From: a virus
IMG/VR virus record: IMGVR_UViG_3300023174_006265
Location: 1-45,268 of that record
Strand: one strand, 5' to 3'
Length of the DNA: 45,268 bases
The translations under genes and the position numbers were made by a program. Below the pieces are notes generated by a model, which saw only the letters and a program-made list of their open reading frames with translations, ran no database searches and was not told the origin of the DNA. Shown piece by piece: positions 3,574-26,880 of this stretch (its first letter is position 1; every line of letters begins with the position of its first letter).

Positions 3574-4761
3574 ATGACCACCGTTGAACTTTTTTTAATT
3601 GCCTTGCTGGTAATATTTTCTGGTCCATATTTAATTTGGAGACTTGGGCGCACTGATTACTGGGCACCTTTGGTTGTGATTCAGATTTTTACAGGAATAT
3701 TTTTAGGGCCTGGTATATTGGGAACTTTGTCGCCGGAAACCTATAAGTTTGTGTTTACTCCACAAGTGATCACTGCCTTGAATGGCATTGCCTGGTGGGC
3801 AGTTACGTTGTTTGTGTTTTTTGCTGGTCTTGAATTAGATCTCGGCAAACTCAAAAATAACAAGATGGAAAGTGCTGTTACCGCGGGATTAGCGTTGGGC
3901 ACACCTTTGATATTTGGCAGCATAATGGCCTGGGCGTTGATAACATATTTTCCTGGAAATTGGATAGGAAGTCAAGCACAGACATGGCAGTTCGTGTTGG
4001 GCATAGGCATGGCCTGTGCTGTGACTGCTTTGCCAATCTTGATTTTGCTCATGCAGAAGCTGAACATATTCCGTCAGCCCATTGGTCAAAGAATTCTGAG
4101 ATATGCCAGTCTGGATGATATAGCCATATGGGGAGTCCTGGCTTTGATTTTGTTGGACTGGAATCGTTTGGGCCAGCAAGGAATATTTTTGACCATATGG
4201 ATTTTGGCCAGCTTTGGCATGCGCAAATTTATGCCCAGATTGCCCGAACAAGACAGAATTTACACAGCATTGATTTGGTTAATTGTTGTGGCCCTAGGAG
4301 CCGATTGGTGTGGTTTGCATTTTATGGTAGGCGCATTTTTAGCTGGTATGGTGTTGGACCGACACTGGTTTGATGAACGGGTGTTAGACTTTATGCGTGA
4401 ACATGTATTGTTGTTTATCATGCCCGTGTTTTTCCTTAGTACCGGTCTACGCACCAGTTGGGAATTAAGTGGACTATTAGTAATTGGCGTGGCTTTGTTG
4501 ATGTATGTAACCCAGGCATCTGGAAAAATTTTGGGTATACAAATAGCAGGAAAAATTTTTAAATGGCCGCCCGGTGAGGTCAAGCTGATTGGTTGGTTAT
4601 TACAAACTAAGGCTTTGATTGAAATTATTTTTGTTAGTGTGTTGTTGGACAAAGGCATCATAACCAGTCAGATGTTTACTGTGATGTTGCTAATGGCCTT
4701 GATCAGCACAATGAGCACTATACCAGCGGTAACACCGATGTTGAAACGACTTGGATATTGA
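3574..4761 (+). CDS. CPA2-type Na+(K+)/H+ antiporter
   Basis: 395 aa with about twelve membrane helices and no C-terminal TrkA-N domain. Two family marks are clear: FAGLELDL (83-90) and AVTALPILILL (149-159) followed by ASLDDIAIWGVL (178-189). The Asp-Asp pair (181-182) is the cation/proton binding pair of electrogenic CPA2 antiporters such as NapA. The length matches the transport domain alone. It would exchange Na+ or K+ for H+ across the inner membrane. A full-length antiporter is very unusual in a phage. The local base composition (2838-4770) is more AT-rich than the flanks, consistent with recent acquisition (inference). Confidence 0.88.
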   Translation: MTTVELFLIALLVIFSGPYLIWRLGRTDYWAPLVVIQIFTGIFLGPGILGTLSPETYKFVFTPQVITALNGIAWWAVTLFVFFAGLELDLGKLKNNKMESAVTAGLALGTPLIFGSIMAWALITYFPGNWIGSQAQTWQFVLGIGMACAVTALPILILLMQKLNIFRQPIGQRILRYASLDDIAIWGVLALILLDWNRLGQQGIFLTIWILASFGMRKFMPRLPEQDRIYTALIWLIVVALGADWCGLHFMVGAFLAGMVLDRHWFDERVLDFMREHVLLFIMPVFFLSTGLRTSWELSGLLVIGVALLMYVTQASGKILGIQIAGKIFKWPPGEVKLIGWLLQTKALIEIIFVSVLLDKGIITSQMFTVMLLMALISTMSTIPAVTPMLKRLGY

Positions 4762-4765
4762 AAAG

Positions 4766-4888
4766 ATGAGTAAATTTAGAATTTGGCTGGCACGCAAGAT
4801 TTTAGGCAATCATTGTTCTTGCTATAAAATGGGATATCATGTATTATGTGACTATACTCAACAAGGAATAGGTGGTCGCAAAAAATGA
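4766..4888 (+). CDS. Small basic Cys-containing protein (40 aa)
   Basis: ATG 4766, four bases after the antiporter stop; TGA overlaps the next ATG (4885). The product has an N-terminal basic helix (SKFRIWLARKIL), then CSCY and a later Cys, and a basic tail. Coding is supported by overlaps at the 3' end and same-strand continuity. No function recognised. Confidence 0.5.
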   Translation: MSKFRIWLARKILGNHCSCYKMGYHVLCDYTQQGIGGRKK

Positions 4889-5115
4889 ATCCCATCAACC
4901 TACTGACTTCAGCCATTGATAGCCTCTGGTGGTGGACCTATGGTATCATTGCCGGCTGGGGTCTGACTTTTACTCTGGTTGTAGCGGCCTTGATCATTTT
5001 GTTGATCAGGACCATTAATCTACAACGCAGAGTGGATAGATTGGAAAATCGGATTATTACCAACGAACGTGAATTCAATCTGTTCAGTAAAACATGGCCA
5101 GGCAAGAAACCTTAG
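4885..5115 (+). CDS. Single-span membrane protein with coiled coil (76 aa)
   Basis: A Trp-rich N-terminus is followed by one long hydrophobic helix (about 17-42) and then a charged helix, INLQRRVDRLENRIITNERE, with heptad-like spacing. This topology is typical of small phage or bacterial membrane-anchored coiled coils. ATG overlaps the preceding stop. The next gene begins inside its 3' end at 5094. Confidence 0.65.
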   Translation: MNPINLLTSAIDSLWWWTYGIIAGWGLTFTLVVAALIILLIRTINLQRRVDRLENRIITNEREFNLFSKTWPGKKP

Positions 5116-5283: not shown

Positions 5284-6855
5284 ATGTGGTTTGGCCTACT
5301 AACTCTCGCAACCGCACTGATCATATCAGTCAGTGCTGCTTACTACAGCATCTTGGGCCTCACGGCTATATTTGCCTCGGCCTTTTGGCCCATAGTTATA
5401 CTTGGCTCAAGTCTCGAAGTAGGCAAAATTGTATCAACTCTGTGGTTGCACAAGTATTGGTCTCGAGCTGAACTACAATACAAGGTTTACTTATGCACGG
5501 CTGTGGCCATACTCATGTTGTTGACCAGCATGGGTGTGTTTGGTTTCCTGTCAAAAGCACACAGCGATCAAGGCATGATCAGTGGAGATGTCACAGCCAA
5601 GATCAGCATCTATGATGAAAAAATCAAACAAGCCCGTGACAACATAGACATGGCTCGAAAGGCTCTGGTCCAGATGGATGCCGCGGTAGATCAAACCATG
5701 AGTCGTAGCACGGATGAAAAAGGTGCTGACAAGGCCGCACAACTGCGTCGTAGCCAGGCTGCCGAACGCAACAGACTCCTGCGTGAAATAGAAACCGAAC
5801 AGAAAAAGATACAGGCACTCAATGACGAACGGGCACCCATAGCCGCCGAAGTGCGCAAGGTCGAAGCTGAAGTAGGACCCATCAAGTACATCGCGGCCTT
5901 GATCTATGGCGACAATCCCGAAGCCAATGTGCTGGAAAAAGCTGTGCGTTGGGTGATCATACTCATTGTCATAGTGTTTGATCCCTTGGCACTTACCTTG
6001 TTGCTGGCCGCTACCAAGACCCTGGAATGGGAACGTGGCATCAACATCATGGCACCTACGGCCAGACGACCCAGGTATGAGCCCGATGATGGAGCCTTGA
6101 CTGAGCATCAACTGAAACAGATCAATGATCGACTCCGAGAAGCCCAAGAAGATCCGGAGGTCCAGGAATTCTTTGATAGTGCTAGAAAAACAGCACAGGC
6201 CATAGACGCTGGCACCTACGAGCCGTCCGAACAAGAACCTGCGGCAAAGAAAAAAATACTGGATGGACTCAATACAATGTGGGCCTGGGGCAGGAAGAAA
6301 TTAGTAAAAGACACAGAAGCCGAACATGCTCCATTAGAATCTCCTAAAGTTGAAGAAGCGGAATATGAAATGCCAGATGATGATCATCTCATTGACGAAC
6401 TCGAAAAACAAGCCCGGAGAACCTGGAAGGATGCACACCCAGAAGACACAATCAAACGGCAACGTCGCATGTATGAAGCCGGCGCAATCAAAGAATTGCC
6501 TTGGATGACTGCCGAGTACTACCCAGACTATCAAGATCAACTGGGCCTAGAAGCCGACAACCTTCCAGAAGGACAGATGGGCGAAGTCCGGGGATTTGGT
6601 ACTGCGTTCCCACCAAATCCCAACAAGAGTGACATGTTCTTGCGTGTAGATCAATTGCCCAGTGTGCTATACAAGTTCAATGGCAAAACCTGGATCGAAG
6701 TAGATAAATCTCAAAGCGACACCCATGCCTACAATGACGCCTACATTGATCATCTCATTGAAAAAATCAGCACAGGCGAATACGATCTTGATCTGCTGAG
6801 CGATGCTGAACGAGACAGTATCGAGCAAAGATTGCGATCCACCGGACAGGCCTAA
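5284..6855 (+). CDS. Membrane protein with long coiled coil (523 aa)
   Basis: Three N-terminal membrane helices (about 2-24, 26-48, 67-89), an extended charged coiled coil (about 105-200), a fourth membrane segment (about 221-243, VRWVIILIVIVFDPLAL) and a long acidic cytoplasmic C-terminus. The block EVGPIKYIAALIYGDNPE followed by this last helix is one I associate with hypothetical membrane proteins of marine and freshwater T4-like phages; their role is not established. The start has no Shine-Dalgarno sequence and lies seven bases after an NTAAATA box. ClpX starts one base after its stop codon. Confidence 0.85.
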   Translation: MWFGLLTLATALIISVSAAYYSILGLTAIFASAFWPIVILGSSLEVGKIVSTLWLHKYWSRAELQYKVYLCTAVAILMLLTSMGVFGFLSKAHSDQGMISGDVTAKISIYDEKIKQARDNIDMARKALVQMDAAVDQTMSRSTDEKGADKAAQLRRSQAAERNRLLREIETEQKKIQALNDERAPIAAEVRKVEAEVGPIKYIAALIYGDNPEANVLEKAVRWVIILIVIVFDPLALTLLLAATKTLEWERGINIMAPTARRPRYEPDDGALTEHQLKQINDRLREAQEDPEVQEFFDSARKTAQAIDAGTYEPSEQEPAAKKKILDGLNTMWAWGRKKLVKDTEAEHAPLESPKVEEAEYEMPDDDHLIDELEKQARRTWKDAHPEDTIKRQRRMYEAGAIKELPWMTAEYYPDYQDQLGLEADNLPEGQMGEVRGFGTAFPPNPNKSDMFLRVDQLPSVLYKFNGKTWIEVDKSQSDTHAYNDAYIDHLIEKISTGEYDLDLLSDAERDSIEQRLRSTGQA

Positions 6856-6856
6856 C

Positions 6857-8056
6857 ATGAGCCCGGCCATAGAACATTGTAGTTTCTGTGACAAACACAA
6901 AGATCGTGTGGGCAAACTCATAGTCAGTCACAAGGTAGCCATCTGCAACGAGTGTGTGGATCTATGCGGTGGCTTGTTGAAAGACACCAAAGCAACTCCA
7001 GAAAAAAAGTCTGGAACCTTTTCAGTTCCAGATCCCAAAGACATTCGAGATTATCTTGATCAGCATGTGGTAGGTCAAGATTCGGCCAAGATAGTGCTCA
7101 GCGTGGCCATAGCCAATCATTACAAACGCATCGGCCACGCAGATCGACGCATAGCCAAAGCCAACATATTAATGATCGGTCCTACCGGTACTGGCAAAAC
7201 ACTCATGGCTCGCACAGTGGCCGAATATTTAGATGTGCCTTTTGTGATAGCAGATGCAACTTGCTTGACCGAAGCAGGATATGTAGGCGATGATGTAGAA
7301 AGCATGATCACAAGATTATACATGGCCGCCGATGGCAGTGTAGAACGCTGTCAGCGCGGCATAGTGTTCCTGGACGAAATTGACAAGATAGCTCGTAAAA
7401 GTGAAAGTGCCACGGTCAGCCGAGACGTCAGTGGCGAAGGTGTACAACAGGCCTTGCTGAAATTGGTTGAAGGCACTCGATGCAAGGTGCCTGTGCAAGG
7501 AACAAAAAAAAGCAACACCACAGAAACTGTGGAGATTGACACTTCAAACATATTGTTCATAGCCGGCGGTGCGTTTGTGGGCATGGACCGCATCGTACAA
7601 AATCGTGTGCAAGGCACAGCCATGGGGTTTGCCGCAAGAATTTCATCAGCAGATGACACCAAGCAGGAACCCATTACTCCAGAAGACCTGGTACGGTATG
7701 GCATGATACCCGAATTTGTAGGTAGATTCAGCAACTACGTAAATCTACATGCTCTGACTCAGTCACAATTGATCAGTGTGTTGACAGAAATCAAAAACAA
7801 TTTTGTGGGTCAATACCAATGGTTGTTTGATCAAGATCAGGTAAATCTACAATTTGATGCTGAAAGCCTGGATCTCATAGTAGAACGCACACTGAGAACC
7901 GGCACAGGTGCCCGCGGATTACACAGCGAACTGGAGCGGGTGTTATTGCCGCACATGTTTGATCTGCCCCGGTATCGCCGACAAAATATATTACAGGTCA
8001 CGATCAATAAAACCCAGGTAAATACACCCATGACACTATTACAGGAAAATTCGTGA
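6857..8056 (+). CDS. clpX: ClpX-like AAA+ unfoldase
   Basis: 399 aa, close to bacterial ClpX. The N-terminal zinc-binding domain has C8, C11, C30 and C33. Walker A is GPTGTGKT (108-115), Walker B IVFLDE (169-174), the substrate pore loop GYVG (141-144), pore-2 RDVSGEG (189-195) and the sensor-2 arginine is in GARGL (351-355). The ClpP-docking tripeptide, normally IGF, is MGF (256-258), so docking to a ClpP ring is probably kept. The start at 6857 gives the canonical zinc domain; the longer frame from 6803 lies in the previous gene. It should unfold substrates for the ClpP at 26302 or the host ClpP. The stop overlaps the bS21 start (GTGA). Confidence 0.93.
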
Positions 8057-8580: not shown

Positions 8581-9021
8581 ATGACAAAAATCACAGCTCT
8601 GGACCTCAGTCCATTTTATCGTAACAGCATTGGTGTAGATCGTTTGTTTGGTCGTATCATGGACCAAATTGATCATGCCAGCACCAACAACTATCCACCC
8701 TACAACATACTCAAGACCGGCGAAGATACCTTTGAAATACAGGTAGCGGTAGCAGGCTTTGGTCAAGGTGAGATTGATGTTGCTGTCAAAGATGGCGAAT
8801 TGGTAATCACCGGAGAAAAACAACCTGAAGCCCTGTTGGTAGGTACCGAGTACTTGCATCAAGGCATCAGTGCTCGTCGTTTTATACGCACATTTACCAT
8901 GGCCGACTATGTGGAAGTAGTCGCAGCCGAGTGCAAAGACGGCATCCTTACAGTGCGGTTGGAGCGACGTGTGCCCGAGGCCATGAAGCCAAAGACCATT
9001 GCGATCACCTACGCAAAATAG
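8581..9021 (+). CDS. Small heat-shock protein, Hsp20/IbpA family
   Basis: 146 aa with a complete alpha-crystallin domain (about 35-130). FEIQVAVAGFGQGEIDVAV and ELVITGEK are the typical beta strands, the region from about 95 to 115 matches IbpA-type RRFIRTFTMADYVEV, and the tail has a KTIAI (I-x-I) motif for oligomer contacts. An AAAGGAG ribosome binding site lies 5 bases before ATG. It holds unfolding proteins for refolding or degradation. Phage Hsp20 proteins are known in T4-like cyanophages. It has its own strong promoter and sits between bS21 and ClpS. Confidence 0.93.
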   Translation: MTKITALDLSPFYRNSIGVDRLFGRIMDQIDHASTNNYPPYNILKTGEDTFEIQVAVAGFGQGEIDVAVKDGELVITGEKQPEALLVGTEYLHQGISARRFIRTFTMADYVEVVAAECKDGILTVRLERRVPEAMKPKTIAITYAK

Positions 9022-14674: not shown

Positions 14675-14699
14675 AAAGCTCCGCGAGGGGCTTTTTTTT
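14675..14699 (+). terminator. Intrinsic terminator
   Basis: AAAGCTCC, loop GCGA, GGGGCTTT, then an eight-T run. Reads well on the plus strand only; it separates the plus-strand operon from the minus-strand terC, which ends at 14698. Confidence 0.85.
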
Positions 14700-15366
14700 A
14701 TTTTTTGATTTCTTTGCGATGGTACTGCAAGGCTGTGATCACTACAGCCGACAACATTGGCAACACCGTTAATACCCAGGCCTCGGTCTGTGCCCACCAT
14801 GCAGTCAACACAGGTTCTTTGATGGCCATTTGTACAGCCACCACAAACAATACAAAACTGCCAAGATAAACTGTGTTGGGCCAACGTTGTAATATGCGTG
14901 ATACTATACCAGCACCAAACAAGATGATAGGAACCGACACCAATAAACCAAAGATCACAAGATAAAAGTTTCCGCCGGCAGCAGCCGCAATGCCCAGGGC
15001 ATTGTCTATGCCCATGACAGCATCAGCAACCACGATAGTGGACATGGCACTCCAGAATGTGGCCTTGGCAGTGACATTGTGTCCTTGGTGTTGATCAAAA
15101 ACCAGTTTCCATCCAATCCAGATCAAGGCCGCGGCACCAATAATTCGTAGACCCGGAATCATCAATAGATAAGTCAACAGGGCCACACTGATGAAACGTA
15201 TAGCCACTGCACCAAATGTGCCCCAGAAGATTGCTCGCTTTCTTAGCTCGGGTGGTAGTTTGTTGGCGGCCATGCCAATGACCAAGGCATTATCGCCAGC
15301 TAGGACGATATCGATTAATATGATTGCTATAACGGCCCAGACGGCCTGTAGGGATAAAAGTTCCAT
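14698..15366 (-). CDS. TerC/YjbE-family membrane protein
   Basis: 222 aa, minus strand, with about seven membrane helices. Signature acidic helix motifs are DIVLAGDNALVIGMA (19-33) and VADAVMGIDNALG (about 112-124), which place conserved Asp/Asn pairs in the membrane. These mark the TerC family, specifically the YjbE group that is often controlled by the yybP-ykoY riboswitch. TerC relatives are linked to Mn2+ efflux or metal loading of exported enzymes. A weak AAGGA at 15372-15376 precedes the ATG. Its 104-base leader holds a convincing Mn riboswitch, so expression should rise with Mn2+ (inference). It is an unusual phage cargo gene. Confidence 0.92.
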   Translation of the reverse strand: MELLSLQAVWAVIAIILIDIVLAGDNALVIGMAANKLPPELRKRAIFWGTFGAVAIRFISVALLTYLLMIPGLRIIGAAALIWIGWKLVFDQHQGHNVTAKATFWSAMSTIVVADAVMGIDNALGIAAAAGGNFYLVIFGLLVSVPIILFGAGIVSRILQRWPNTVYLGSFVLFVVAVQMAIKEPVLTAWWAQTEAWVLTVLPMLSAVVITALQYHRKEIKK

Positions 15367-15371
15367 AATTT

Positions 15372-15470
15372 TCCTTGAAAGTTATGGTCTCACTGCTTGG
15401 TCCGATACCGGGCTTGTTTGGCCGTGTTGACGATATTAGGAACCAGCCCTCGCTGGTCAGTTACTCCCCA
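15372..15470 (-). promoter_or_regulatory. yybP-ykoY (Mn2+) riboswitch in terC leader
   Basis: Read on the minus strand, the leader has the conserved 5' loop TTGGGGAGTAACT (about 15472-15460). A P2 stem GACCAGC/GCTGGTT follows (15458-15452 with 15447-15441), then the internal segment TCGTCAACACGGCC, and near the 3' end GCAGTGAGACC. GGGGAGTA and GAGACC are the two conserved loops that build the Mn2+ site when docked in RF00080 RNAs. TTCCT at 15442-15438 can pair with AGGAA of the ribosome binding region, suggesting translational control. It lies directly before a TerC/YjbE gene, the classic target of this class. Confidence 0.85.
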
Positions 15471-15471
15471 A

Positions 15472-15503
15472 CAGTATTTACCGCTAAATACTGCATGGGT
15501 CAA
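15472..15503. promoter_or_regulatory. Divergent palindromic promoter region, terC / 15495 operon
   Basis: A perfect 9-bp inverted repeat, CAGTATTTA-CCGC-TAAATACTG (15472-15493), holds one NTAAATA box per strand. The plus box GCTAAATA (15483-15490) ends four bases before ATG 15495. The minus box GGTAAATA (15475-15482) would start RNA just at the riboswitch, and a TTGACC lies 17 bp upstream of it (15498-15503, minus strand). Confidence 0.55.
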
Positions 15504-20715: not shown

Positions 20716-21747
20716 ATGACTAAACTTAAACGCATAGGTTTCTGTTGCAAATGGCTCAATGATCCCAGCGAATGCGGCGGCATGAAAGTCAATGCCAAAG
20801 ATCGAGACCTTAACGGGCGTAGTACCACCATGCGTTGGTTGCGCGAACATCCTGCTGAAGCTGAACAACGCCAATGGGACATCATGAATCACAACGCCTC
20901 GGCTGCAGTCAAACTTATAGAACGTGTGGCCAGCTTGCCCGAGAATCGCAGAATGGTACGTCTTGGAAGTGAAATGCTACAGGGGTACACAGAGAAAGAT
21001 TGGAAGGCCTGGTGGCAAGATCCTGCAATACAGGCACATTGTGAGAAGATATTTGCTCCCATTGGGGAAACAGCTCGTAGGTTGGATGTCAGGCTCAGCT
21101 TCCACCCTGGACAATTCTGTGTGTTAGGGTCTGAATCAGAAGAGATTGTAAATAGAAGCATAGAGGAGTTTGAATATCATGCGGATATGGCCAGATGGAT
21201 GGGTTATGGGAAATCCTTCCAGGATTTTAAAATCAACGTACACATATCAGGTAAAGCCGGTGCCGCCGGTGCGCGACGTGCTTATGGACGCCTCAGCCCC
21301 GAAGCCCGCAGTTGTATTACATTTGAAAACGAAGAAATAACACATGGCCTGGATCGTTGTCTTGAACTTGCTGATATTGTTCCTACTGTGCTTGATGTTC
21401 ACCATCACTGGATCAAAACGGGAGAATATATTTCACCCCAGGACGAACGTGTCAAACGTGTCGTGGACAGTTGGCGTGGTGTTCGTCCTGCTATGCACTA
21501 CAGCGTTAGCCGTGAAGACGTACTTGTTGGTCATGCCGTTCACTATAAACCAGATCATGCAAGTTTGCTAGAGTCGGGCTACAAAAAACAAAAACTCCGA
21601 GCACATTCAGATTTTTACTGGAATCCAGTTGTCACTGACTGGGCTTTGAGTTTTTGGTCGCAGTTTGACATACAGTGCGAAAGCAAAGGCAAGAACCTGG
21701 CCAGTGAACAGGTTTACAATCGTGCAGTAGAACTAGGGTTGGTATAG
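20716..21747 (+). CDS. uvsE: UV damage endonuclease UvsE/UvdE
   Basis: 343 aa. Starts KLKRIGFCCKW as the family does, which fixes the start at 20716. TIM-barrel metal-site motifs: RLSFHPGQFCVLGS (about 120-133), VHISGKAG, TFENEEITHGLDRC, VLDVHHHWIKTGE and RAHSDFYW. UvsE nicks DNA 5' to UV photoproducts and begins repair without a glycosylase. Phage copies are known and would help survival in sunlit water. The promoter sits right on the start codon and there is no ribosome binding site, so the mRNA looks leaderless. Confidence 0.92.
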   Translation: MTKLKRIGFCCKWLNDPSECGGMKVNAKDRDLNGRSTTMRWLREHPAEAEQRQWDIMNHNASAAVKLIERVASLPENRRMVRLGSEMLQGYTEKDWKAWWQDPAIQAHCEKIFAPIGETARRLDVRLSFHPGQFCVLGSESEEIVNRSIEEFEYHADMARWMGYGKSFQDFKINVHISGKAGAAGARRAYGRLSPEARSCITFENEEITHGLDRCLELADIVPTVLDVHHHWIKTGEYISPQDERVKRVVDSWRGVRPAMHYSVSREDVLVGHAVHYKPDHASLLESGYKKQKLRAHSDFYWNPVVTDWALSFWSQFDIQCESKGKNLASEQVYNRAVELGLV

Positions 21748-23242: not shown

Positions 23243-23956
23243 ATGACAGCAATTATTGCGACCTTGGTAATGGTCCAAATTACCATAGCCTGTGTCACGC
23301 TGTATCTACACAGAAGCCAAGCTCATAGAGCTGTGCAGTTTCATCCAGTATTGGTTCACTTCATGCGTTTTTGGCTGTGGTTGACCACAGGCATGATTAC
23401 CCGTGAGTGGGTGGCCATACATCGGAAACATCATCAGAAAAGCGACAAAGAAGGTGACCCCCACAGTCCACAGATCTATGGTATCTGGCGTGTGTTGTTT
23501 GGTGGTGCTTTCCTGTATCACAAGGCCAGCAAAAATCGTGCCATGGTCAAAGATCTCAGTACAGGCACGCCCGATGACTGGATCGAACGCAACTTGTACG
23601 CTCGACACAGTAGGCTAGGCATACTGATCATGTTTATCATTGATTTGAGTGTGTTTGGTCCATGGGGATTTGTAGTTTGGGGTGTACAAATGCTGTGGAT
23701 TCCTTTCTGGGCGGCCGGCGTCATAAACGGTCTCAGCCACTGGTGGGGATATCGCAACACAGATACTCCAGACACCAGTCGTAATCTATGGCCCTGGGCT
23801 ATCTGGATCGGTGGCGAGGAACTACACAACGGGCATCATGCCGATGGCGCCAATGCCAAGTTCAGCCAAAAGTGGTGGGAGTTTGATATTGGATGGATGT
23901 ATATTTGCATACTGAAGGCTCTTGGATTAGCTAAACTCCGAATCAAATCAATTTAA
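23243..23956 (+). CDS. Acyl-CoA (delta-9-type) fatty acid desaturase
   Basis: 237 aa with all three histidine boxes: H23RSQAH28, H60RKHH64 and H195NGHH199, between four hydrophobic segments. These ligate the di-iron centre that inserts a double bond in an acyl chain. The length is a little shorter than usual bacterial copies because the C-terminus is trimmed after the HNGHH box. Membrane unsaturation by a phage could tune lysis, fluidity or adsorption in cold water (inference). Downstream of a GNAT gene and upstream of a phasin-like gene. Confidence 0.9.
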   Translation: MTAIIATLVMVQITIACVTLYLHRSQAHRAVQFHPVLVHFMRFWLWLTTGMITREWVAIHRKHHQKSDKEGDPHSPQIYGIWRVLFGGAFLYHKASKNRAMVKDLSTGTPDDWIERNLYARHSRLGILIMFIIDLSVFGPWGFVVWGVQMLWIPFWAAGVINGLSHWWGYRNTDTPDTSRNLWPWAIWIGGEELHNGHHADGANAKFSQKWWEFDIGWMYICILKALGLAKLRIKSI

Positions 23957-26301: not shown

Positions 26302-26880
26302 ATGCCTATTTTACAAGAAACCGACAATTCTGAAAAAGAACCCAGTCGCTTGCTCCAAGAAGCCGGCATGTATGTGTTCATGGGCGGAGTCGACGATGAT
26401 ACTATCAGACCCATCATAGAGTGGATTTTGGTGGAAAATCACGTGGTAAAAAAGAAGAAAAAAGAGCTACTGCTTATGGTCTGCAGTGAAGGCGGCAGCG
26501 TGGAAGATGCTTTTGCCTTGATTGATGTGATGAAAGCCAGCAGTATTCCAATCAAGACCGTGGGTCTGGGCGTGATAGCCAGTGCAGGACTCATGATATT
26601 TTTGGCTGGACATGCAGGACGTAGAGTGCTAACGCCCAACACTTCAATACTAAGCCATCAATATAGCAACAGCCACGAAGGCAAGCATCACGAACTGTTT
26701 GCCATAGCCAAAGAACACAATCTCATACAGTGGCGCATGCTGGAACACTATCGTGCGGCCACGGGCTTGGACACTGATACTATATTGGAAAAATTGTTGC
26801 CACCCAGTGATATCTACTTGTCAGCAGAGGAAGCCTTAGAATTAAAAATCTGCGACTATGTCAGCGACTTGAAAAAATAA
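26302..26880 (+). CDS. clpP: ClpP-like serine protease
   Basis: 192 aa, the length of a mature ClpP. Catalytic triad all present: S94 in GVIASAGL, H119 in ILSHQY and D170 in PSDIYLSA. The substrate-binding strand LLLMVCSEGGS matches the family's NSPGG loop, here CSEGG. The lysine cluster KKKKK (50-54) is unusual. It should form a heptameric proteolytic chamber for ClpX. The sequence is diverged from host-type ClpP, so the ring may be phage-specific. A weak TATAAT (26276-26281) lies upstream and no Shine-Dalgarno sequence is seen. Confidence 0.9.
   Translation: MPILQETDNSEKEPSRLLQEAGMYVFMGGVDDDTIRPIIEWILVENHVVKKKKKELLLMVCSEGGSVEDAFALIDVMKASSIPIKTVGLGVIASAGLMIFLAGHAGRRVLTPNTSILSHQYSNSHEGKHHELFAIAKEHNLIQWRMLEHYRAATGLDTDTILEKLLPPSDIYLSAEEALELKICDYVSDLKK

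Follow-up and report, generated by a model that had tools for sequence, protein, structure and literature searches.

The closest known relatives of the leader analysed here are the manganese-sensing RNAs of the yybP-ykoY family (RF00080). Both have the L1 motif GGGGAGUA...GAGACC, an L3 loop CGUCA with the Mn2+-sensing A, the helices P1.2, P2, P3.1 and P3.2, a position before a Mn2+-related membrane gene and an expected ON-type logic. In the solved structures of the family, P4 and a four-way junction are present, the Mn2+-sensing adenosine is A41/A48 (PMC9190785, PMC6754395), and in one solved relative the weak P1.1 helix is stabilised by Mn2+ (PMC6754395). The phage form differs in having no P4, a three-way junction and a P1.1 of 2 bp. 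Also unlike RF00080 members, it lies in a viral genome behind a putative T4-late-type promoter, at what would be the very 5' end of the transcript, its start-codon hairpin and P1.1 have two nucleotides in common, and it falls below RF00080 detection.

The Escherichia coli alx and mntP Mn2+ riboswitches belong to the same aptamer family, and the control reported for them in the literature is translational. In some phages the module described below stands before an Alx-type gene, but the alx leader itself is longer, has a large P4 and lacks TAAATA, and the gene studied here is of the short YjbE-like type rather than an Alx. The nearest cellular TerC proteins (59-66% identity) are those of Polynucleobacter, encoded behind yybP-ykoY leaders (L082-L088, L117) that differ from the phage form by a short P4, a cellular promoter in place of TAAATA and another expression platform.

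To our knowledge, reports of riboswitches in phages are rare. In the open-licence literature we found no paper joining yybP-ykoY with a phage gene and no report of a metal riboswitch in a phage, which agrees with the sequence-only reading of this DNA, where such an arrangement was thought to be rarely or never described. A glutamine riboswitch has been proposed to control a gene of methylophage Melnitz (PMC9004378); it is likewise phage-borne but differs in class, ligand and gene. The terC gene is itself already known in phages (PMC11256456, PMC7824862). In Pseudomonas syringae phages it has 29-37% identity, and there it was taken as a tellurite resistance gene and no riboswitch was reported (PMC11256456).

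The locus lies in a stretch of 45,268 nucleotides (hereafter the window) taken from an IMG/VR virus record. Homologues in other viral loci were found for 30 of the 43 window ORFs tested, many of the best being in L045, L002 and L048/L185, in agreement with the phage origin proposed earlier. The ORF read as terC proved to encode a TerC protein by Pfam (PF03741 over residues 14-183, 147.5 bits where the cut-off is 27.8, E 4e-43); it was assigned to PHROG 7180, category moron/AMG, and a sequence search of the PDB gave no match. We consider it probable that this gene, as a late-expressed TerC-type metal exporter, is controlled by a phage-adapted minimal yybP-ykoY riboswitch acting as a translational ON switch. 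The window also contains several genes of other functions (Table 1). UvdE-family enzymes often require Mn2+. Homologues of the desaturase-like gene were found ~0.8-9 kb from terC in 69 related viral loci (some contigs counted twice), Alx-type loci included, and mostly on the opposite strand.

Table 1. Coordinates of the features discussed, numbered along the window.
Feature	Position	Strand	Basis or remark
T4-late-promoter-like box TAAATA	15475..15480	-	conserved in viral leaders
Adjoining TAAATA boxes on both strands, TATTTAGCGGTAAATA	15475-15490		
Compact yybP-ykoY-type (Mn2+) aptamer, 84 nt	15386..15469	-	alignment, covariation, covariance model
L3 core CGTCAACAC/CGTCA region	15424..15432	-	42-leader alignment
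Hairpin CCATAA...TTATGG	15363..15387	-	pairs start codon, encloses Shine-Dalgarno AAGGAA
terC, 222 aa, YjbE-like TerC-family membrane protein	14698..15366	-	PF03741, PHROG 7180
Terminator-like hairpin 3' of terC, AAAGCCCCTCGCGGAGCTTTAA	14671..14692	-	read off sequence
Na+/H+ exchanger family gene	3574-4761	+	PF00999
ClpX-like gene with zinc finger	6803-8056	+	
HSP20 gene	8581-9021		
UV-endonuclease UvdE-family gene	20716-21747	+	PF03851
Fatty-acid-desaturase-like gene	23243-23956	+	PF00487
ClpP-like gene	26302-26880	+	

The leader motifs quoted in the sequence-only reading were all located on the minus strand, in the order GGGGAGTA (15469-15462), P2 stem, TCGTCAACACGGCC, GCAGTGAGACC (ending at 15386), AAGGAA and the ATG at 15366, the 3' end of the aptamer being 20 nt upstream of terC. 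The aptamer runs through P1.1 (2 bp), L1, P1.2, P2, P3.1 (with one mismatch and one bulge), L3 and P3.2, and P4 is absent. Viral relatives were gathered by a protein-only search, which yielded 80 loci; in most of those with a TerC starting MEL, GGGGAGTA...CGTCA...GAGACC was present directly 5' of terC. The recurrence in related phages that had been suggested as a check was thus observed in loci found by protein alone, and the association of aptamer and terC is confirmed as real and well beyond chance.

We aligned 42 distinct compact viral leaders, window included. Standard pairs filled 98.3% of the pair cells, against 28.7-42.2% for slid partners, two-sided changes occurred at 15 of the 25 pairs, and none of 500 shuffles reached any of the pairing measures. 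The 42 leaders thus back one structure, and its L1, L3, P1.2, P2, P3.1 and P3.2 agree with the yybP-ykoY family, as first proposed. The L1 motif and its 3' strand (A/G)AGACC were (nearly) invariant in the set, and C38 G39 U40 C41 A42 of L3 were invariant in all 42, including the loop adenosine equated with the Mn2+ contact. In the window this is base 15428, which we take to be the counterpart of A41/A48 of the solved aptamers.

A search of the window with RF00080 (Rfam 15), the check proposed together with the first description, gave no match at E<=10. The same model, however, did not match the E. coli alx leader, the viral leader L017 or two leaders from Bacillota in which the motif is complete, and it gave 40 bits to a Paenibacillus leader against a cut-off of 45 and 26 bits, under its own cut-off, to the Polynucleobacter leader L085. 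Since alx is missed too, the negative result is non-discriminating and carries no weight, and RF00080 was dropped as a deciding test. The model has 177 positions and, as seen with L001, L085 and L096, it misses alx and leaves clear members under its own cut-off.

A covariance model built from the viral leaders without L054 and L209 recovered both, with 92 and 82 bits (E ~1e-20 or better), whereas it gave 44-48 bits to the Polynucleobacter leaders and 15 to E. coli alx. Compact viral copies scored 75-96 bits under the viral model; the window, whose leader is included in the model, scored 82.8. Of 300 Burkholderiales genomes, two matched at E<=0.001 (39.7 and 47 bits). A scan of IMG/VR for box plus aptamer returned 78 stretches, with contigs of 190-364 kb among them, and the module is now known in nearly 70 distinct viral versions; no match was obtained when annotated phages were searched at the nucleotide level. 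One of the viral copies, at 4884-4963 (-) of L209, has the box and an intact aptamer with no terC downstream.

The absence of P4 distinguishes the viral from the cellular leaders. In most parsed compact viral copies the linker from P3.1 to L1 is ~9 nt long and has no hairpin, whereas in nearly all parsed cellular copies it is 15-55 nt long and contains one; without P4, the junction becomes three-way instead of four-way. The P4-less form was not found among the parsed cellular leaders, save for two parsing artefacts (L101, L121). A short P4 is retained in a viral minority (L053, L065, L078, the L002 group and L239), and since these copies bridge both forms we call the compact form a variant; it looks like a derived one. 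P1.1 is shortened to GG:CC because there is so little 5' sequence. As P4 is present in solved members, its absence means that metal affinity may differ. The kind of element had been rightly recognised from the sequence, but the missing P4, the 2-bp P1.1 and the abutting, putative T4-late-type promoter had been overlooked, and the detail of the switch was wrong. The element is more unusual than first stated because it is a phage-specific form.

The window TAAATA ends 5 nt from the aptamer. The same box was present in all 42 distinct viral leaders, which had been selected without reference to the promoter, against none of 54 cellular leaders, and it stood 10-14 nt before GGGG (mode 11). Once leaders found partly by the box were added, the count became 68 of 70. 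The two exceptions were false leads, L187 being a host-type alx leader without box in a viral contig and L197 a coding-sequence coincidence picked up by the pattern scan. In 38 relatives, 44% of TAAATA occurrences were followed at 5-110 nt by an ORF in the same orientation (7% expected; 14% for the reverse complement), as were 9 of the 24 occurrences in the window. In T4 late promoters, gp55 recognises a TATA box of 8 bp that spans -13 to -6 (PMC2988020), and we compared the window box with the TATAAATA-like box that T4 has at these positions. The modal spacing together with the T4 geometry would place +1 on the first G of the aptamer. Homologues of gp55 were detected in two Alx-type relatives and in five of the six relatives above 190 kb searched first. 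In the largest relatives their E values were 1e-23 to 1e-27, and 14 control genomes had no homologue; the gp23 capsid protein was found in six relatives. The window record itself (45 kb) had no gp55 or gp23 match. The divergent pair of TAAATA boxes listed in Table 1 recurs in 17 of the 70 viral leaders, a sequence pattern that suggests a two-way late promoter.

The IMG/VR scan also revealed a second target. In about ten contigs (L188, L238, L243, L244, L249, L250, L253, L255 and L256, with L237 assigned by its start), the same P4-less promoter-aptamer module precedes an Alx-type TerC gene, with a short ORF in between in L188 and L243. The protein encoded in L188 shares 41.6% identity with E. 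coli Alx, whose annotation is that of a Mn2+ exporter, whereas BLAST found no significant similarity between the L188 protein and the window TerC. One sensor before two different exporters is the best functional clue obtained in silico. Riboswitch control and the Alx-type alternative in other phages lead us to infer that the window TerC may export Mn2+.

The transplanted sensor could also have been altered, the loss of P4 and the short P1.1 having changed or abolished Mn2+ sensing in a yybP-ykoY homologue, so that the leader may respond to another divalent ion or to pH, or be a constitutive structured element. This would fit the compact viral copies, with their missing P4 and P1.1 of 2 bp, and also three sequences (L038, L044, L047) in which the promoter box and terC are retained while the 5' part or most of the aptamer is deleted. 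These are natural sensor losses, and they imply that sensing is dispensable in some phages. On the other hand, the metal-binding loops are invariant in the 42 leaders while the stems covary, and two TerC types that differ widely stand behind one and the same aptamer. We therefore judge an altered sensor unlikely, though it is the most serious rival of a Mn2+-responsive switch.

The conserved, covarying expression platform is a CCAUAA:UUAUGG hairpin around the start codon, whose CC is common to P1.1. In silico folding gave hairpins of this type a probability above 0.5 in 38 of the 42 leaders (median 0.99). The arms covary, CCATAA/TTATGG being replaced by CCATTTTAA/TTAAAATGG, possibly by GTGAGA/TCTCAC in L054, and none of 5000 arm swaps reached the observed pairing. 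Removing CC brought the median hairpin energy from -5.25 to -0.05 kcal/mol, and that of the window from -5.6 to 0.0. The start codon is paired within this hairpin and the Shine-Dalgarno sequence lies inside it, which supports the earlier proposal of translational control as the likely level. A transcription terminator platform was rejected, as the hairpin lacks a U-run and extends over the AUG. In L002, L030, L034 and L037 the AUG of the hairpin opens a short ORF (MD start) 61-89 nt upstream of terC.

From this arrangement, Mn2+ binding and a direction of switching can be proposed. RNA polymerase with a gp55-type sigma factor would use TAAATA to start on the aptamer's first G or on an adjacent base. 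At low Mn2+, the CC of GACC, the last bases of the aptamer, would be paired to both Gs of AUGG, so that the start codon is masked in the CCAUAA:UUAUGG hairpin. Docking of L1 to L3 by Mn2+ would stabilise P1.1 (GG:CC) and withdraw both Cs; the leftover hairpin would be nearly without stability and terC would be translated. Mn2+-induced translation is likely, as the simplest reading of the modelled competition between hairpin and P1.1. Nearest-neighbour energies without ligand put the OFF state ahead by a median of 5.4 kcal/mol; with a P1.1 of only 2 bp, much would thus have to be supplied by Mn2+ docking or co-transcriptional folding.

In some T4 late genes, a hairpin at the start region silences read-through early transcripts. 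The terC hairpin could likewise act in timing only, with no metal control, and the T4-like promoter and the phage relatives would fit such a role. The entire hairpin, however, lies downstream of the putative late start, and late transcripts would therefore form it too; in addition, its CC is common to the aptamer and its arms covary beside a conserved metal-binding core. A pure timing device thus appears very unlikely. Still less credible is the platform of the sequence-only reading, in which a TTCCT element, located in the P2/P3 linker, would pair with the ribosome-binding AGGAA. The window contains both strings, but TTCCT occurs at that place in one of the 42 leaders, and the minimum-energy fold of the window has CCAUAA:UUAUGG instead. 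Finally, although terC genes related to the viral ones occur in Polynucleobacter behind a leader with P4, host DNA or an assembly artefact can be ruled out almost with certainty by the 78 viral stretches, among them contigs of 190-364 kb of which several have gp23 and gp55, and by the absence of TAAATA from all 54 cellular leaders.

In a quick tree, the viral TerC and eight Polynucleobacter TerC formed one clade apart from the other sampled cellular TerC (SH-aLRT 100), and this TerC type was present in five of 81 Polynucleobacter genomes. It is probable that terC was transferred jointly with its riboswitch between phages and the Polynucleobacter lineage. Beyond the switch of the window itself, we hold it evenly balanced whether T4-like phages evolved a minimal module of their own, consisting of a late promoter, a P4-less aptamer from +1 and a two-nucleotide toggle between P1.1 and the start-codon hairpin, and placed before YjbE-type and Alx-type TerC genes so that late Mn2+ export is gated by direct metal sensing.

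A widespread bacterial metal sensor is found here cut to ~84 nt, on a putative viral late promoter and before two types of TerC. With its 2-bp switch helix and absent P4, it would be unusually small for a Mn2+ aptamer, and it would put the purpose of the four-way junction to a direct test. The arrangement points to an adjustment of manganese export by the virus in late infection. If the module works as proposed, manganese would be a resource or a hazard that large phages manage in the late phase.
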